Source: Aliarcobacter butzleri
GTDB taxonomy: Bacteria > Campylobacterota > Campylobacteria > Campylobacterales > Arcobacteraceae
Length of the DNA stretch: 64,000 bases
Assembly: GCF_900187115.1 (NCBI RefSeq)
Contig: NZ_LT906455.1
Span: forward strand, 868,001-932,000
Direction of reading: 5' to 3'
Below are positions 29,567 through 34,737 of the stretch, one piece after another. A program made the translations under genes and the position numbers. Below the pieces are notes generated by a model. The model searched no databases and had not been told where the DNA came from. It saw only the letters and a list, made by a program, of their open reading frames with translations. How positions within the stretch are numbered: position 1 is the stretch's first letter; each line of letters starts with the position of its first letter.

Positions 29567-30889
29567 ATGGAAAATAAAATGAAAAAAAGATTTTATAGAA
29601 TTAGAAACCTTGATAGTTTATTAGACAAATATAAAGAATTAGAAAATCAAGAAATATTTTTTCAATCAACAGATAAACTAAATGACCCAATGGAAGGGTT
29701 TATGGATTTTATTTTTAAAGGTGATGAAGTTGTTTGGAAGAATTTAATTATTCATTTTATATTTTGTTTTAGTAAAGTTAATTTGATTTACCAAGTAATT
29801 GGAGAAAAAATTAAACTTGATAATAAAATTATTCCTATATTTGAAAAAATTGATTTACAAAAAAAACAATATTATTTTGATTTATTAGGTGATAGTAACA
29901 AAAATAAATTTTATGAATTTATAAACAAAGATAGTATTTCAAGAAGTGAATTAGAAAGTTTTTTAAAAGATATAAATCTTAGTTTTATTGGAGATATTTC
30001 ATTCTTAGAAAGTAAAATTTTTGAAAATGATAATTTACAAAATCTTCAATTCCTTTTAAATTTTTATTCTCATTATTTAGAAGTTATAGAACAATTTACT
30101 TATCCTAAATATTATATAGCTAGTTTTTTAAAAGAATCTTACAATTCATCTGTTTGGGGACATTATGGACAAGGTCATAGCGGAGTTTGTTTGATTTTTG
30201 AAACAAATAATGAAGGAGAAATACCATTTTTAAATGTTTACACAGGATTAAAGTTAAAAGAAGTAAATTATAATGGTAATTTCGAAGAAATAAATTTTTT
30301 TGAGTCATTGGGAAAAATACCCCAACCATTGGTAGAAAGTTTTTATATAGATGAGAATAAAAATAAAAGTATTTTATTTGATAAAGTTTTAAATAATCAA
30401 GAAGAATGGAGAAAACTTTTTTGGGATAAATATGAAAAGAATAAATTGACAAAAACTAAAGATTGGACGTATGAAAAAGAGTATAGAATAGTTTTAAATA
30501 GATTGATGGATTATGAAATTAAAGAAGAAGATAGAAAACTAAAATATGACTTTAATTGTTTAAAAGGTGTAATTTTTGGTATAAAAACTCCTCAAAATAA
30601 AAAAGATGAGATAATAGAGATTATAATAAATAAATGTCATGAAAATAATATTTTAGATTTTGAGTTTTATCAAGCTTTTTATTGTAAAGAATCAAAAAAT
30701 ATACAGCATAAAAAATTGGATGTAAATATCATAAATGATTTAATAAAAAAAGCTAAACAAAATAAATTAGATTTAAATATAGAATTTTTAACTTTAAATA
30801 AACGAAAAGAAGAGATAGATAATGAAAATGGAGAAGTGGAAAAACGAATAAGTAAATTGGAGGAAATAAATAATATTAAGAATACATAA
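29567..30889 (+). CDS. DUF2971-type hypothetical protein
   Basis: 440 residues. The N-terminal YRIRNLDSLLDKYKELENQE with FQSTDKLNDPMEG, the central WGHYGQGHSGVCLIFE and the later YEKEYRIV segments are the hallmarks of DUF2971. The C-terminal ~100 residues are Lys/Glu-rich and probably coiled. Start is ATG 29567; an ATG at 29579 with GGAAAA upstream is an alternative. Family function is unknown, and its members are often in variable genome regions, as here. Confidence 0.7.
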   Translation: MENKMKKRFYRIRNLDSLLDKYKELENQEIFFQSTDKLNDPMEGFMDFIFKGDEVVWKNLIIHFIFCFSKVNLIYQVIGEKIKLDNKIIPIFEKIDLQKKQYYFDLLGDSNKNKFYEFINKDSISRSELESFLKDINLSFIGDISFLESKIFENDNLQNLQFLLNFYSHYLEVIEQFTYPKYYIASFLKESYNSSVWGHYGQGHSGVCLIFETNNEGEIPFLNVYTGLKLKEVNYNGNFEEINFFESLGKIPQPLVESFYIDENKNKSILFDKVLNNQEEWRKLFWDKYEKNKLTKTKDWTYEKEYRIVLNRLMDYEIKEEDRKLKYDFNCLKGVIFGIKTPQNKKDEIIEIIINKCHENNILDFEFYQAFYCKESKNIQHKKLDVNIINDLIKKAKQNKLDLNIEFLTLNKRKEEIDNENGEVEKRISKLEEINNIKNT

Positions 30890-30984
30890 ACAATAGAAAT
30901 ATATTTTTGATATCATATTGTTATATTCGTGTTACATACAAATGTTATAGTCTTTTTAAGATAAATAGTAGGAGGAAATTATTT

Positions 30985-31983
30985 ATGAAAAAGATTGTAA
31001 CTGTTGCATTATTTGGTGCATTAGCTGTAAGTTCATTATTTGCAGATGAAGTTGTTAAATTTGATAAAAATCTTATCAAAGAAAGAAACAACATTGGATA
31101 CAAATACGAAGGACCAAAAATAGAGTGGAAAGCTCCAGATGAGAGTACTATTCCAAATAATCAATTTGGTGATTTAATCAAATATGGAAAAGAGTTAGTA
31201 ACTCATACGTACAAATACATAGGACCTGAAGTCGAAGATAAAAAGATGAGATTTGCTGGAAATAATCTTTCATGTCAAAGCTGTCATTTAGATGCTGGGA
31301 CAAAAGCTTACTCAGCTGGGTTTATTGGAGTATTTGCAAACTTTCCACAATATAGACCAAGAGAAAATACTATTGGAACTTTAGCAGATAGAATAAATGG
31401 TTGTATGGAAAGAAGTATGAACGGAAAAGCTCTTCCACTTGGTAGCAAAGAGATGAAAGCTTTTGAAGCTTATATGTATTGGTTAAGTCAAGGTATTCCA
31501 ATAGGTGCTAAAGTAGAAGGTTCAAGTTTAGCTGAAGTTAATAGAAAAATGATACAAACAACTAAAGCCGATACAGATAAAGGAAAAGTTGTGTATGATA
31601 CACAATGTGCAGCTTGTCATGGTGCAAACGGTGAAGGTGTTAAAAATGAAGGTAAGGCAAATGGATATATGTATCCGCCACTTTGGGGAAAAGATAGCTA
31701 TAACAAAGGTGCTGGAATGTACAGAACTTTAAAAGCTATGGATTTTATTAAAGCAAATATGCCTTTAGGTGCAACACATGAAAATCCTATTTTAACAGAT
31801 GAAGAAGCTTATAACGTTGCAGCTTTTATGAATATGAATGAGCATAAAAGACCAGAAAAAGCAAATAGAGAAAAAGATTTTCCAGATGCATCTGTAAAAG
31901 CTCCTGATACATATATTGAAGGAAAAGATCCTATTGAAAAACAAGTTGGACCATTTGGACAGTTTATTAAAACTAACAAATAA
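30985..31983 (+). CDS. tsdA: TsdA-type di-haem thiosulfate dehydrogenase/tetrathionate reductase
   Basis: 332 residues from the ATG at 30985, which has GGAGG nine bases upstream. Signal peptide about 1-20. Haem motifs: CQSCH near residue 97 and CAACH near 208. The segment RINGCMERSMNG places a cysteine near residue 139, the distal Cys ligand that gives the active-site haem of TsdA its His/Cys coordination. The enzyme interconverts thiosulfate and tetrathionate in the periplasm; the Campylobacter jejuni homologue favours tetrathionate reduction. Downstream lies a sensor gene set. Confidence 0.88.
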   Translation: MKKIVTVALFGALAVSSLFADEVVKFDKNLIKERNNIGYKYEGPKIEWKAPDESTIPNNQFGDLIKYGKELVTHTYKYIGPEVEDKKMRFAGNNLSCQSCHLDAGTKAYSAGFIGVFANFPQYRPRENTIGTLADRINGCMERSMNGKALPLGSKEMKAFEAYMYWLSQGIPIGAKVEGSSLAEVNRKMIQTTKADTDKGKVVYDTQCAACHGANGEGVKNEGKANGYMYPPLWGKDSYNKGAGMYRTLKAMDFIKANMPLGATHENPILTDEEAYNVAAFMNMNEHKRPEKANREKDFPDASVKAPDTYIEGKDPIEKQVGPFGQFIKTNK

Positions 31984-31987
31984 AGTA

Positions 31988-32008
31988 GGAGTATCTTTAT
32001 GATACTCC
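31988..32008 (+). promoter_or_regulatory. Hairpin sequestering the ribosome site and start of the Cache gene
   Basis: An 8-bp inverted repeat GGAGTATC...GATACTCC with a 5-base loop. The left arm contains the AGGAG ribosome site of the next gene, and its ATG (31999-32001) lies across the loop and right arm. A short T-rich stretch follows. It can act as a leaky terminator after tsdA, as a translation brake for the sensor gene, or both. Confidence 0.55.
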
Positions 32009-32943
32009 CTTTTATAAAAACTTACAAAAAGATATTTATTCTATTCATTATTATAATAACTATTATTTTATATTTTTTATATAAATATAACAATATTTTA
32101 GACAAAAAGTATCTTGATATTTTTGTATCAAATCAAGTGCAAATTGTACAAAATGAGTTAGAAAATCAGAAAAATCAAGCTTTATCTTTAGCTTTAATGT
32201 TCTCAAAAAATCAAGATATTATCAAAAATTTAGAAGAGAATAACCATATAGAGCTAAAAAAAGAGCTTTTAAAACTTTTGAATATTATAAAAACATATAC
32301 AAAAAATAGTATTGATATACAAATTCATACAAAAGATTTAGAAGTTTTTACAAGAAGTTGGGAAGATAAAGATTTTGGCTTAAAACTTCAAAGTTTTAGA
32401 GAAGGGCTTGTAAAAGTAAAAAATACAAATAAACCTTATGTTTCAAGTGAGTTAGGAAAAAGATTTAATATTAAAGCTATCGCACCAGTTTTTAATAGTG
32501 AAAACTCTTTTATCGGTTCTATTGAAGTAATAGTTGATTTTAACCCACTTGTAAGTAGGTTAAAAGTTTTGGGAATTGACTCCATAGTTTTACTTGAGAA
32601 AAACTATTTGAATATAGCAACATACCATAAAAATAGTATGGAGTTAGAAAATCATGTGATTTTAGAAAATAGTTTTAGTAAAAATTTATTTGATATTTTA
32701 TTAAAAAATCCAAACTATCTTAAAAAAGAGAGTTTTTATTATGAAACAAAAGATAGAGTATTTACTCAACTTCCTTTAGGAAGATTTGAAAATGGTAGTG
32801 TTGGAATTTTACTTATCTGTTTTGACAAAAATATAAATAATTTTAGATATTTACCAAATTATGACTATTTTGGACAGATAAATATCAAAAGCGAAAAGAG
32901 AGATGACAAAGATATTTCAAAAAAAGAGATAATAATTAGATGA
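31999..32943 (+). CDS. Membrane-anchored periplasmic Cache-domain sensor without output domain
   Basis: 314 residues. One helix at about 11-30 and then an extracytoplasmic domain to the end; there is no second helix, HAMP, kinase or methyl-accepting region. The core (FTRSWEDKDFG...GLVKVKNTNKPYVSSE...NIKAIAPVF...FIGSIEVIVDF) is the pattern of single Cache ligand-binding domains. Its 3' end overlaps the regulator gene start by four bases. It presumably binds a small molecule and passes the signal to the nearby kinase in the periplasm; this is inferred. Confidence 0.7.
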   Translation: MILPFIKTYKKIFILFIIIITIILYFLYKYNNILDKKYLDIFVSNQVQIVQNELENQKNQALSLALMFSKNQDIIKNLEENNHIELKKELLKLLNIIKTYTKNSIDIQIHTKDLEVFTRSWEDKDFGLKLQSFREGLVKVKNTNKPYVSSELGKRFNIKAIAPVFNSENSFIGSIEVIVDFNPLVSRLKVLGIDSIVLLEKNYLNIATYHKNSMELENHVILENSFSKNLFDILLKNPNYLKKESFYYETKDRVFTQLPLGRFENGSVGILLICFDKNINNFRYLPNYDYFGQINIKSEKRDDKDISKKEIIIR

Positions 32944-33602
32944 TAAAGATATTGTTACTGGAAGATGACTATTTATATAAAATTTCTATAAAAGAGTTTT
33001 TAGAGGAGTTAGATTTTATAGTTGATGACTTTGATAATGGTGAAGATGCCTTAAATGCAATCTTTGATAAAAAATATGATTTACTTTTACTTGATATTAG
33101 AGTCCCTAAAATGGATGGTTTTGAACTTGTAAAATATGTTAGAGAGGCTTTTATTGATACTCCAATTATTATTTTAACTTCACTTACAGATATAAAGAAT
33201 TTAAGTAAAGGATATGAGTTAGGGTGTAATGATTATATAAGAAAGCCATTTGATATGATAGAGTTAAAACATAGAATAGAGCAACAAATAAAGAATTATT
33301 TTCAAACAAGTGATGATGCAATTGTGCTTGATTTTGGTTTTAAATATAGTATAAAAAAATCTCTTTTGTATAAGGATAATATTATTATAGAACTTAGTTC
33401 AAAAGAGCTTGAACTTGTAGCTTTTTTAGTACAAAATCGTGGTTTTTTTGTATCTATTGAGAGTTTACATGAAAATGTTTGGGAAAAGAAAGATATTTCG
33501 TATGCAGATATAAGAATGTGCATTAAGAGAGTTAGAGAAAAGACAAATAAAGATTTTATAAAGACTAAGAGATTTTTAGGATATAAGATTGATAAACAAT
33601 AA
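32940..33602 (+). CDS. OmpR/PhoB-type response regulator
   Basis: 220 residues. Receiver domain (1-120) with the acidic pair ED at 8-9, phospho-acceptor Asp 52 in LLDIRVPKMDG, Thr in LTSLTD and Lys in RKPFD. A winged-helix DNA-binding domain follows (about 130-220, with SSKELELVAFLVQNRG and the recognition helix YADIRMCIKRVREK). It is translationally coupled to the Cache gene upstream and to the kinase gene downstream (14-base overlap). Confidence 0.92.
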   Translation: MIKILLLEDDYLYKISIKEFLEELDFIVDDFDNGEDALNAIFDKKYDLLLLDIRVPKMDGFELVKYVREAFIDTPIIILTSLTDIKNLSKGYELGCNDYIRKPFDMIELKHRIEQQIKNYFQTSDDAIVLDFGFKYSIKKSLLYKDNIIIELSSKELELVAFLVQNRGFFVSIESLHENVWEKKDISYADIRMCIKRVREKTNKDFIKTKRFLGYKIDKQ

Positions 33603-34737
33603 ACTTGAGTTAAAATATGTTGTAATACAAGTTACAATTAGTCTTCTTATAGCTTTTATTCCTATATATTTTTATATAGATGCAACAATAAAAAATCAAA
33701 ATATAAAAGATAAACTTGATTTACAAAATTATGCAAATCAAGTTGTTTTAATAATAGAAAATTTCGAGAAACAAAACAAGGATATCTTTTATTATCCACG
33801 CTCAAATATATTTTTTTCTAGTATCTTTGATGAAAATAAAAAAGAAATTTTTCACTCAAATACTCCTTTAGAACTTTTTGATGAAGATTTCCAAACTTTT
33901 AATGATAAGTTTTGTTATAAAGAGTATCTGTCTTCAAATATTTTGAGTGCTTCTTTTCTGATTGTTTGTAAAAATATTGATTATAGTGAAGTTATTTATA
34001 ATGCTTTAATTCTTCTTTTAATAGTGAGTTTTTTCATCTTTTTACTCTCATTTTTTGTAATAAAACAAAGCATTGAACCATATAAAAAGTTAAATATCTA
34101 TTTAGATGAATTTTTAAAAGATGCAATGCATGAACTCAAAACTCCTATTGGAGTTGCAAGAATAAATATTGATATTCTATCAATACGGTTAAAAAACGAT
34201 AAAAATATTTTAAGAATAAAATCAGCACTAAAAAATATGACAGTTATTTATGAAGATTTAGAATATTATATGCAACAAAATGCTGTAAAAGATGAAAAAA
34301 GAGCTATAAATCTATCAATATTTTTAGAAAAACGAGTAGAGTTTTTCAATGACTTAGCTATTTCAAAAAATATTAGTTTTACTAAATTTATAGAAAAAAA
34401 TATCAAAATAAATTTCAATGAAATAGAACTTTATAGAATAATAGATAATAACCTTTCAAATGCTATAAAATACTCAAAAGAAAACTCTAATATAACTGTA
34501 ATTTTAGAAACTGTAAATGAAGATTTGAAGCTAACATTTAAAGATGAAGGTGTTGGTATAAAAGATACTTCTAGTATTTTTAAAAGATATTATAGAGGTG
34601 ATAAAATAACTGGTGGTTTTGGAATAGGGCTTAGTATTGTAAAAAATATTTGTGACAAAAATGATATAAAAATAGAAGTTATATCAAAGGTACAAGAAGG
34701 AACTACTTTTATTTATAGTTTTGGTAAAATCTTTTAG
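33589..34737 (+). CDS. Sensor histidine kinase
   Basis: 382 residues from a TTG start inside the regulator gene, with AGGA seven bases upstream and no in-frame ATG nearby. Two helices (about 10-28 and 140-160) enclose a ~110-residue periplasmic part. The H-box DAMHELKTPIGVARIN holds the phospho-acceptor His near 181; the N-box (NNLSNAIKYS), GVGI and FGIGLSIV boxes are intact. With the coupled regulator it forms a two-component pair, probably reporting on the Cache protein and tsdA. Confidence 0.9.
   Translation: MINNKLELKYVVIQVTISLLIAFIPIYFYIDATIKNQNIKDKLDLQNYANQVVLIIENFEKQNKDIFYYPRSNIFFSSIFDENKKEIFHSNTPLELFDEDFQTFNDKFCYKEYLSSNILSASFLIVCKNIDYSEVIYNALILLLIVSFFIFLLSFFVIKQSIEPYKKLNIYLDEFLKDAMHELKTPIGVARINIDILSIRLKNDKNILRIKSALKNMTVIYEDLEYYMQQNAVKDEKRAINLSIFLEKRVEFFNDLAISKNISFTKFIEKNIKINFNEIELYRIIDNNLSNAIKYSKENSNITVILETVNEDLKLTFKDEGVGIKDTSSIFKRYYRGDKITGGFGIGLSIVKNICDKNDIKIEVISKVQEGTTFIYSFGKIF

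Follow-up and report, generated by a model that had tools for sequence, protein, structure and literature searches.

Three-component systems such as TorT/TorS/TorR use a separate periplasmic protein to pass the signal of a respiratory substrate to a sensor kinase. For sulfur oxyanions, the closest described systems are ThsS/ThsR of Shewanella halifaxensis, which responds to thiosulfate, and TtrS/TtrR, which responds to tetrathionate; each is a kinase and a regulator encoded beside a reductase whose promoter they activate (PMC5408782; here and below, statements on cited papers refer to the parts of each source that were available to us). In a 64,000-nucleotide stretch of the Aliarcobacter butzleri genome (RefSeq GCF_900187115.1, contig NZ_LT906455.1, forward-strand positions 868,001 to 932,000; hereafter the window, with coordinates counted from its first letter), tsdA is followed by genes for a membrane-anchored Cache protein, an OmpR-type response regulator (RR) and a sensor histidine kinase (HK). 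We consider it probable that this Cache-RR-HK set is a three-part signalling system, responsive to a sulfur oxyanion and specific to tsdA, that activates tsdA.

The likeness to ThsS/ThsR and TtrS/TtrR lies in a membrane sensor kinase and a regulator encoded beside a thiosulfate or tetrathionate enzyme. The two kinases carry a PhnD-like PF12974 sensor within the kinase itself (PMC5408782), whereas the window set has a separate double-Cache protein and an OmpR-type regulator. PsrR, for polysulfide, is named in a review of how Campylobacterota regulate respiration, the available part of which names no regulator of tsdA or sox (PMC6682613). For the non-chemotaxis two-component systems of A. butzleri, the genome paper states that no functional prediction was possible (PMC2147049). 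The available parts of PMC11334517 (on CemR of A. butzleri), PMC10045233 and PMC7952632 contain nothing on a Cache-RR-HK set, and we found no published description of one in a literature search that covered few subscription papers. How Campylobacterota turn thiosulfate oxidation and thiosulfate reduction on and off seems undescribed.

tsdA is followed by a Cache protein, a regulator and a kinase

The tsdA gene occupies positions 30985–31983 on the plus strand, with an ATG at 30985 and a stop codon at 31981–31983. Its product matches the Pfam families SoxA-TsdA_cyt-c (58.4 bits, cut-off 27) and Cytochrom_C, and its best solved match is the thiosulfate dehydrogenase of A. vinosum (6.2e-47, residues 44–290), with Cys140 at haem 1 aligning with Cys96 of 4wqc (A. 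vinosum TsdA). Residues C97, C100, H101, C140, C208, C211, H212 and M259 are invariant in all 17 aligned rows. Two c-type haem motifs are present; haem 1 has a Cys as axial ligand, and haem 2 has Asn258-Met259. The TsdA proteins of both C. jejuni and A. vinosum share with it the two CxxCH haems, the haem-1 Cys and the haem-2 Met; the Asn preceding this Met is found as in C. jejuni TsdA, an enzyme reported to work in both catalytic directions (PMC5146829). Judged by its sequence, the gene appears to encode a true TsdA, that is, a di-haem thiosulfate dehydrogenase / tetrathionate reductase.

The next frame (31999–32943, plus strand) encodes a double-Cache protein, the putative sensor subunit. 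Pfam recognizes dCache_3 (61.2 bits, cut-off 25.7), without any output domain, and the predicted model (pLDDT 85.1) has a single long N-terminal helix, none at the C-terminus, and disorder beyond residue 281. A sequence search of the PDB gave no matches up to E 1, and we judged the fold by comparing the predicted model with solved structures. The distal module matches citrate-bound CitA (Z 19.3, root-mean-square deviation 1.5, 123 residues) and the whole model matches DctB (Z 15.7, root-mean-square deviation 5.3, 211 residues). The best matches (CitA, DcuS and DctB, all carboxylate sensors) share just 10–16% sequence identity with the window protein. Pfam, the model and the matches to DctB and CitA agree on two Cache modules behind an N-terminal helix. 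The three known sensors resemble the window protein in the fold of the distal module and, for DctB, in the double module; they differ in that their sensor domain binds carboxylates and is built into the kinase itself. TorT, for its part, is a soluble binding protein, whereas the Cache protein is anchored by one helix. Within the distal module, all 77 proteins of the tsdA-linked type share Q108, W121, R134, E151, K154, R155, N157 and K159, and 76 of the 77 have H110 and R119.

The regulator frame (32940–33602, plus strand) overlaps the Cache frame by 4 nt, and the kinase frame (33589–34737, plus strand), which opens with TTG at 33589, overlaps the regulator by 14 nt. An earlier note, made from the letters of the window, had described this four-gene layout, with an anchored Cache protein lacking an output domain, and overlapping reading frames; open reading frames and Pfam matches bear out the layout, and the overlaps occur among the last three frames. 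The regulator combines Response_reg with the winged-helix domain Trans_reg_C, the OmpR/PhoB arrangement, and its phospho-acceptor by motif is Asp52; ThsR and TtrR have an output domain other than the OmpR type. The kinase scores 66.5 bits for HATPase_c (cut-off 26.4) and 22.5 bits for HisKA, below the cut-off of 26.9, with His181 and the N and G boxes present by motif. In its model, two long helices flank a five-stranded domain at residues 75–129, in keeping with the small periplasmic domain that the note had ascribed to it; a fold search matched generic kinase cores and was not informative on this domain. Neither the kinase nor the Cache protein matched PF12974 (phosphonate-bd) up to E 0.1, which agrees with the note's view that the set differs from TtrS/TtrR, since the TtrS and ThsS kinases carry that domain (PMC5408782).

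The set is linked to tsdA across related genomes

We surveyed 104 genomes of the family to which the window genome belongs and detected tsdA at E 1e-20 in 63. The set lies directly beside tsdA in 62 of these, one of which (G017) has a contig ending within the RR; in the 63rd (G101), tsdA is 184 nt from a contig end. The order is tsdA-Cache-RR-HK in 33 genomes, the window included, and Cache-RR-HK-tsdA in 29. A further genome (G100) has the Cache gene and a partial RR at a contig end, and tsdA was not found in it. A separate scan of GTDB contigs kept 80 loci, 53 of them with full flanks, and tsdA is adjacent in all 53. RR and HK passed the filter in 51 of the 53; in the other two the RR was missed by the filter and is visible on the map. 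Among the 27 loci cut by contig ends, tsdA is visible in 15 and not in 12. The loci come from Aliarcobacter, Arcobacter, Poseidonibacter, Malaciobacter, Halarcobacter, Sulfurospirillum, Sulfurimonas, Sulfurovum, Sulfuricurvum and Nitratifractor, and the remainder are titled by higher groups of the phylum, except one (L220) titled Proteobacteria. Three gene orders of the linked set occur: tsdA-Cache-RR-HK, Cache-RR-HK-tsdA and divergent. A separate sensor gene is conserved beside the kinase and regulator genes, the arrangement of a three-component system. Co-occurrence of the Cache gene with the kinase and tsdA, which the note had named as a check, recurs in both surveys, and these counts speak against a chance arrangement.

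A direct repeat with an 11-bp period precedes tsdA

Just upstream of the interval to which the locus had earlier been confined (30985–34737, which omits the whole of 30920–30951) lie a direct repeat, GTTAT-N6-GTTAC, with an 11-bp period (30920–30935, plus strand), and a −10-like TATAGT (30946–30951, plus strand) that begins exactly 10 nt past the second half-site. We treat the repeat as a putative operator. Taken by itself within the 64-kb window, the bare repeat matches once against 0.40 expected, which is not significant.

Unsupervised expectation maximization (EM) recovered 11-bp-period direct repeats ahead of tsdA and of soxX, and also ahead of phsA once coding and ribosome-binding sequence had been masked; the latter two genes adjoin related sets (see below). 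We counted near-identical 6-mer pairs in the −85 to −35 region, using 193 promoters from the same stretches as controls. Pairs at lag 11 occur in 36/73 tsdA, 16/21 phsA and 16/27 soxX promoters and in 28/193 controls; the next highest lags give 17/73 (lag 13), 4/21, 5/27 and 37/193 (lag 10), respectively. The repeat together with TAnnnT is present at tsdA in 35 of the 36 other loci of the window's order, at 26 of 27 soxX and at 16 of 21 phsA genes. TAnnnT falls exactly 10 nt past the second half-site in 35/35 repeats at tsdA in the window's order, 7/8 at divergent tsdA, 26/26 at soxX and 16/16 at phsA (background 917/18634 positions, or 4.9% per position), in a test that came after the repeats were found, with patterns derived from the EM results and with preference, among several matches, for one having TAnnnT at 10 nt. 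The one locus of the window's order without the repeat (L097) has an overlong frame, and its site appears in a genus-wide scan.

In that scan of 31 genomes, the composite pattern GTTAY-N6-GTTAY-N10-TAnnnT stands at tsdA in 27 of 27 tsdA genomes, and its 21 other matches do not exceed the 37 of a reversed control. Across the window genome (2.35 Mb) it matches once, at 30920–30951; the reversed control gives three matches. For tsdA genes in the order Cache-RR-HK-tsdA, EM first returned the ribosome-binding site and, after masking, a weaker repeat; a degenerate pattern written after seeing the sequences matches 28/29 and is supportive only. No such repeat emerged from EM ahead of the sox-type Cache gene or ahead of the Cache gene that opens the order Cache-RR-HK-tsdA.

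The half-site varies by class (GTTAY, TTGAC, TTTAC) on a constant architecture, which fits regulators that diverged together with their sites. Of the phsA genes in the sample, 18 adjoin a phs-type set and 13 of these have the repeat; the other three are second copies near a tsdA set, and all have it. Of four further phsA genes, three have a repeat-N10-TAnnnT match. From these comparisons we infer that the window regulator may bind the 11-bp-period repeat as its operator.

A partial precedent for this design exists in the same phylum. PceP/PceS of Sulfurospirillum, which responds to tetrachloroethene, has an OmpR-type regulator that is reported to bind direct repeats near the −35 box (CTATW-N17-CTATW, 22 bp apart), and at pceAB the −35 box holds a third CTATA, placed between the repeats with gaps of six nucleotides (PMC7755780). 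The two designs are related and not identical: the period is 22 bp there and 11 bp here, and the PceP/PceS kinase has seven transmembrane helices; the available part of that paper does not mention a Cache domain (PMC7755780).

Related sets adjoin other thiosulfate enzymes

A class-wide Cache search covered 397 genomes, with at most five candidates scored per genome and counts taken from the matches listed; from these matches we chose 60 stretches outside the family for neighbourhood reading. The search gave two kinds of paralogous set, one in which RR-HK and Cache adjoin a molybdenum operon and one in which Cache-RR-HK stands ahead of soxXYZAB; on this ground we rejected exclusivity to tsdA for the wider family. 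The note had made its case depend on the set not being widespread without tsdA: this stands for the tsdA-type Cache clade and falls for the wider family, in which sets lacking tsdA mostly adjoin phsA or soxXYZAB, other thiosulfate enzymes. The molybdenum subunits of two phs-type sets (L155 and L113) score 1063.5 and 1064.5 bits for the NCBIfam thiosulfate reductase PhsA (cut-off 694), and the second phsA copy near the tsdA set of L118 is also PhsA, the three tested subunits spanning 1063.5–1102.4 bits. SoxA and SoxY of one sox locus score above their cut-offs.

Of 132 Cache proteins (L033–L167), 126 are encoded no more than 3.5 kb from an enzyme gene: tsdA for 74, phs for 25 and sox for 27. 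The remaining six are at a contig end (L037), in a cut locus (L141), orphan phs-type genes (L149, L150 and L166) or next to a DsrE-like gene (L164). In a quick Cache tree of 133 rows including the window, with weak support at 32 of 130 inner branches, the proteins split by neighbour into tsdA, phsA and soxXYZAB groups. Among rows with an enzyme nearby, the enzyme class requires two changes, the minimum for three classes. Subtypes 1 and 2 of tsdA swap seven times with the set remaining next to the gene throughout; starred branches force four or more of these swaps for the subtype-2 label.

In an 18-row alignment spanning the three classes, R119, W121, R134 and E151 are invariant and the motif at residues 154–160 varies by class, a pattern compatible with a single type of anionic ligand, tuned by class. 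The Cache C-terminus also follows class: a tail pattern, [IVL]-x-[IV] followed by no more than one residue, or a terminal [IV][KRE], occurs in 72/75 tsdA-type and 24/27 sox-type proteins, and in 3/25 phs-type proteins and 1/6 proteins with no enzyme nearby. That this conserved tail couples the Cache protein to the kinase is our guess. The sets beside tsdA, phsA and soxXYZAB share thiosulfate chemistry, and thiosulfate may be the signal because it is the sole compound that TsdA, Phs and Sox have in common.

The members of the set can also lie apart. In G238 and G227, which have orphan-looking phs-type Cache genes, the RR-HK pair was found beside phsABC elsewhere in the genome, apart from the Cache gene; in G173, RR-HK is likewise not followed by a Cache gene.

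Proposed mechanism and alternatives

In the scheme that we favour, a sulfur oxyanion (thiosulfate, which the related sets have in common, or tetrathionate) would bind the CitA-like membrane-distal Cache module in the periplasm. The Cache protein would then alter the state of the kinase next to it, with its conserved C-terminal tail and the small periplasmic domain of the kinase as possible points of contact, and the kinase would phosphorylate the regulator at Asp52. A regulator dimer would bind the direct repeat, standing in for a −35 box, and activate tsdA from its promoter; with the genes ordered as in the window, that transcript would continue through a hairpin into Cache-RR-HK, and this read-through would amount to positive autoregulation damped by the hairpin. 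The scheme builds on which genes are present, their conserved linkage, the Cache clades, the promoter architecture and the modelled fold. If correct, it would offer a clean model of how a separate subunit in the periplasm signals to a kinase, with a Cache-type sensor unrelated to the PhnD-like ones of engineered gut sensors. The predicted operator makes the proposed regulation directly testable.

The alternative that survives best, which we still regard as unlikely, is that the kinase senses alone, through its small periplasmic domain or from the membrane or redox state, and that the Cache protein is a modulator such as a brake. The kinase does have its own five-stranded domain, with P70, S72 and N117 invariant in a 72-row alignment, and RR-HK stays with phsABC in G227 and G238 while the phs-type Cache gene lies elsewhere, as it also stands without a following Cache gene in G173. 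Keeping eight polar or aromatic distal Cache residues in all 77 rows goes beyond the needs of a mere brake, however, and the order and spacing of the set are conserved in most of the loci seen.

That the Cache protein senses an organic acid or other anion, and that tsdA follows carbon supply or another cue, strikes us as improbable. Its appeal comes from the fold, since the best matches CitA, DcuS and DctB are carboxylate sensors; yet fold similarity does not fix the ligand, and the sets adjoin three thiosulfate enzyme systems that share a sulfur substrate and no common carbon pathway. Least probable by far is an ordinary two-component system functionally unrelated to tsdA, with repeats that serve another regulator: regulators frequently adjoin unrelated genes, tsdA without the set exists in other families and the repeat is missing at 5 of the 18 phsA genes that adjoin a phs-type set, but adjacency in 62/63 and 53/53 cases, three gene orders, repeated enzyme swaps and half-site letters that change by class on a constant architecture stand against it.

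Several observations weigh against the sulfur-oxyanion scheme itself. The compared rows are related species, and the linkage counts are not independent events. In the class sample, the Cache gene is adjacent in at least 50 of 105 tsdA genomes (coordinates compared by eye), leaving at most 55 without it, and the set is absent within the genes shown of nine tsdA neighbourhoods (L252–L260); a tenth, L261, is G101 at its contig end, where the set is not visible. In one of the nine (G420; L252:3112-11716), tsdA is accompanied instead by a dCache_3-fused kinase, a regulator and a TtrA-like operon, whose TtrA-like subunit scores 924 bits, under the cut-off of 1750. The nearest fold neighbours of the Cache protein bind citrate and succinate, so its ligand could be a carboxylate. 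At the promoter level, the repeat is missing at 5 of 21 phsA genes, all five among the 18 beside a phs-type set and all from f10 genomes, which makes the cognate link weaker there. Related RR-HK sets from a kinase search adjoin multihaem c-type cytochromes (L264–L268 and L270; identified by Pfam for L264 and L266 and by like sequence for L265, L267, L268 and L270), have no recognised sulfur gene (L262, L263 and L269), or, in L271 and L272, accompany an SBP_bac_3-PAS_3 protein with no Cache gene and with an NiFe hydrogenase adjoining (by Pfam in L271). The regions upstream of seven genes beside these cytochrome- and hydrogenase-type sets yield one exact and one near match to repeat-N10-TAnnnT.

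Campylobacterota are prominent sulfur cyclers at vents and are also present in the gut. We raise tentatively, as a possibility we rather doubt, that the phylum has one modular family of inorganic-sulfur sensors, in which an HK-RR core would work with an exchangeable periplasmic subunit. The CitA-like Cache protein would be a thiosulfate receptor governing tsdA, phsABC or soxXYZAB through a shared promoter design, with its C-terminal tail as coupling peptide, and the SBP_bac_3-PAS protein would replace it as sensor beside hydrogenase in a sister lineage. A single sensor family would then account for a large part of how tsdA, phs and sox genes are controlled across Campylobacterota. The recurrence of the sets suggests a common, so far unstudied mode of sulfur-compound sensing in the phylum.

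Additional features of the loci

The Cache-RR-HK sets of L264–L268 and L270 are closest to the sox type, and their cytochromes are multihaem proteins with doubled CXXCH motifs. The occurrences of SBP_bac_3-PAS_3 in place of Cache (L271:6631-7902 and L272:4470-5798) represent a possible sensor swap. In three genomes (L118, L122 and L132), the second phsA copy, near the tsdA set, has the repeat, and the phsA beside the phs-type set does not. In loci where the Cache gene is convergent to RR-HK (within L145–L167), a gene of about 120 amino acids often precedes it; the sole one examined, in L150, encodes a HIT domain. In L164, a DsrE-like gene (L164:7015-7518) precedes a divergent Cache-RR-HK set with no sox, phs or tsdA gene nearby. 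In the window, a DUF2971 gene (29567–30889) between DUF2400 and tsdA looks like a local insertion; no relatives of its product were found in the neighbourhoods of the family loci compared.

Directly after the tsdA stop codon, a hairpin with an 8-bp stem (31988–32008, plus strand) spans the putative ribosome-binding site and the ATG of the Cache gene. The corresponding region folds with z < −2 in 35 of 36 other loci of the window's gene order (mean −4.4), compared with 10 of 36 for a control fold inside tsdA (mean −1.0), and the stem letters vary on both sides across species. Sixteen of 28 loci of the order Cache-RR-HK-tsdA also pass the fold test after tsdA, so part of the signal may be ordinary 3′ ends. 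The hairpin could keep down read-through, or it could make translation of Cache depend on translation of tsdA, either of which would leave more enzyme than sensor.

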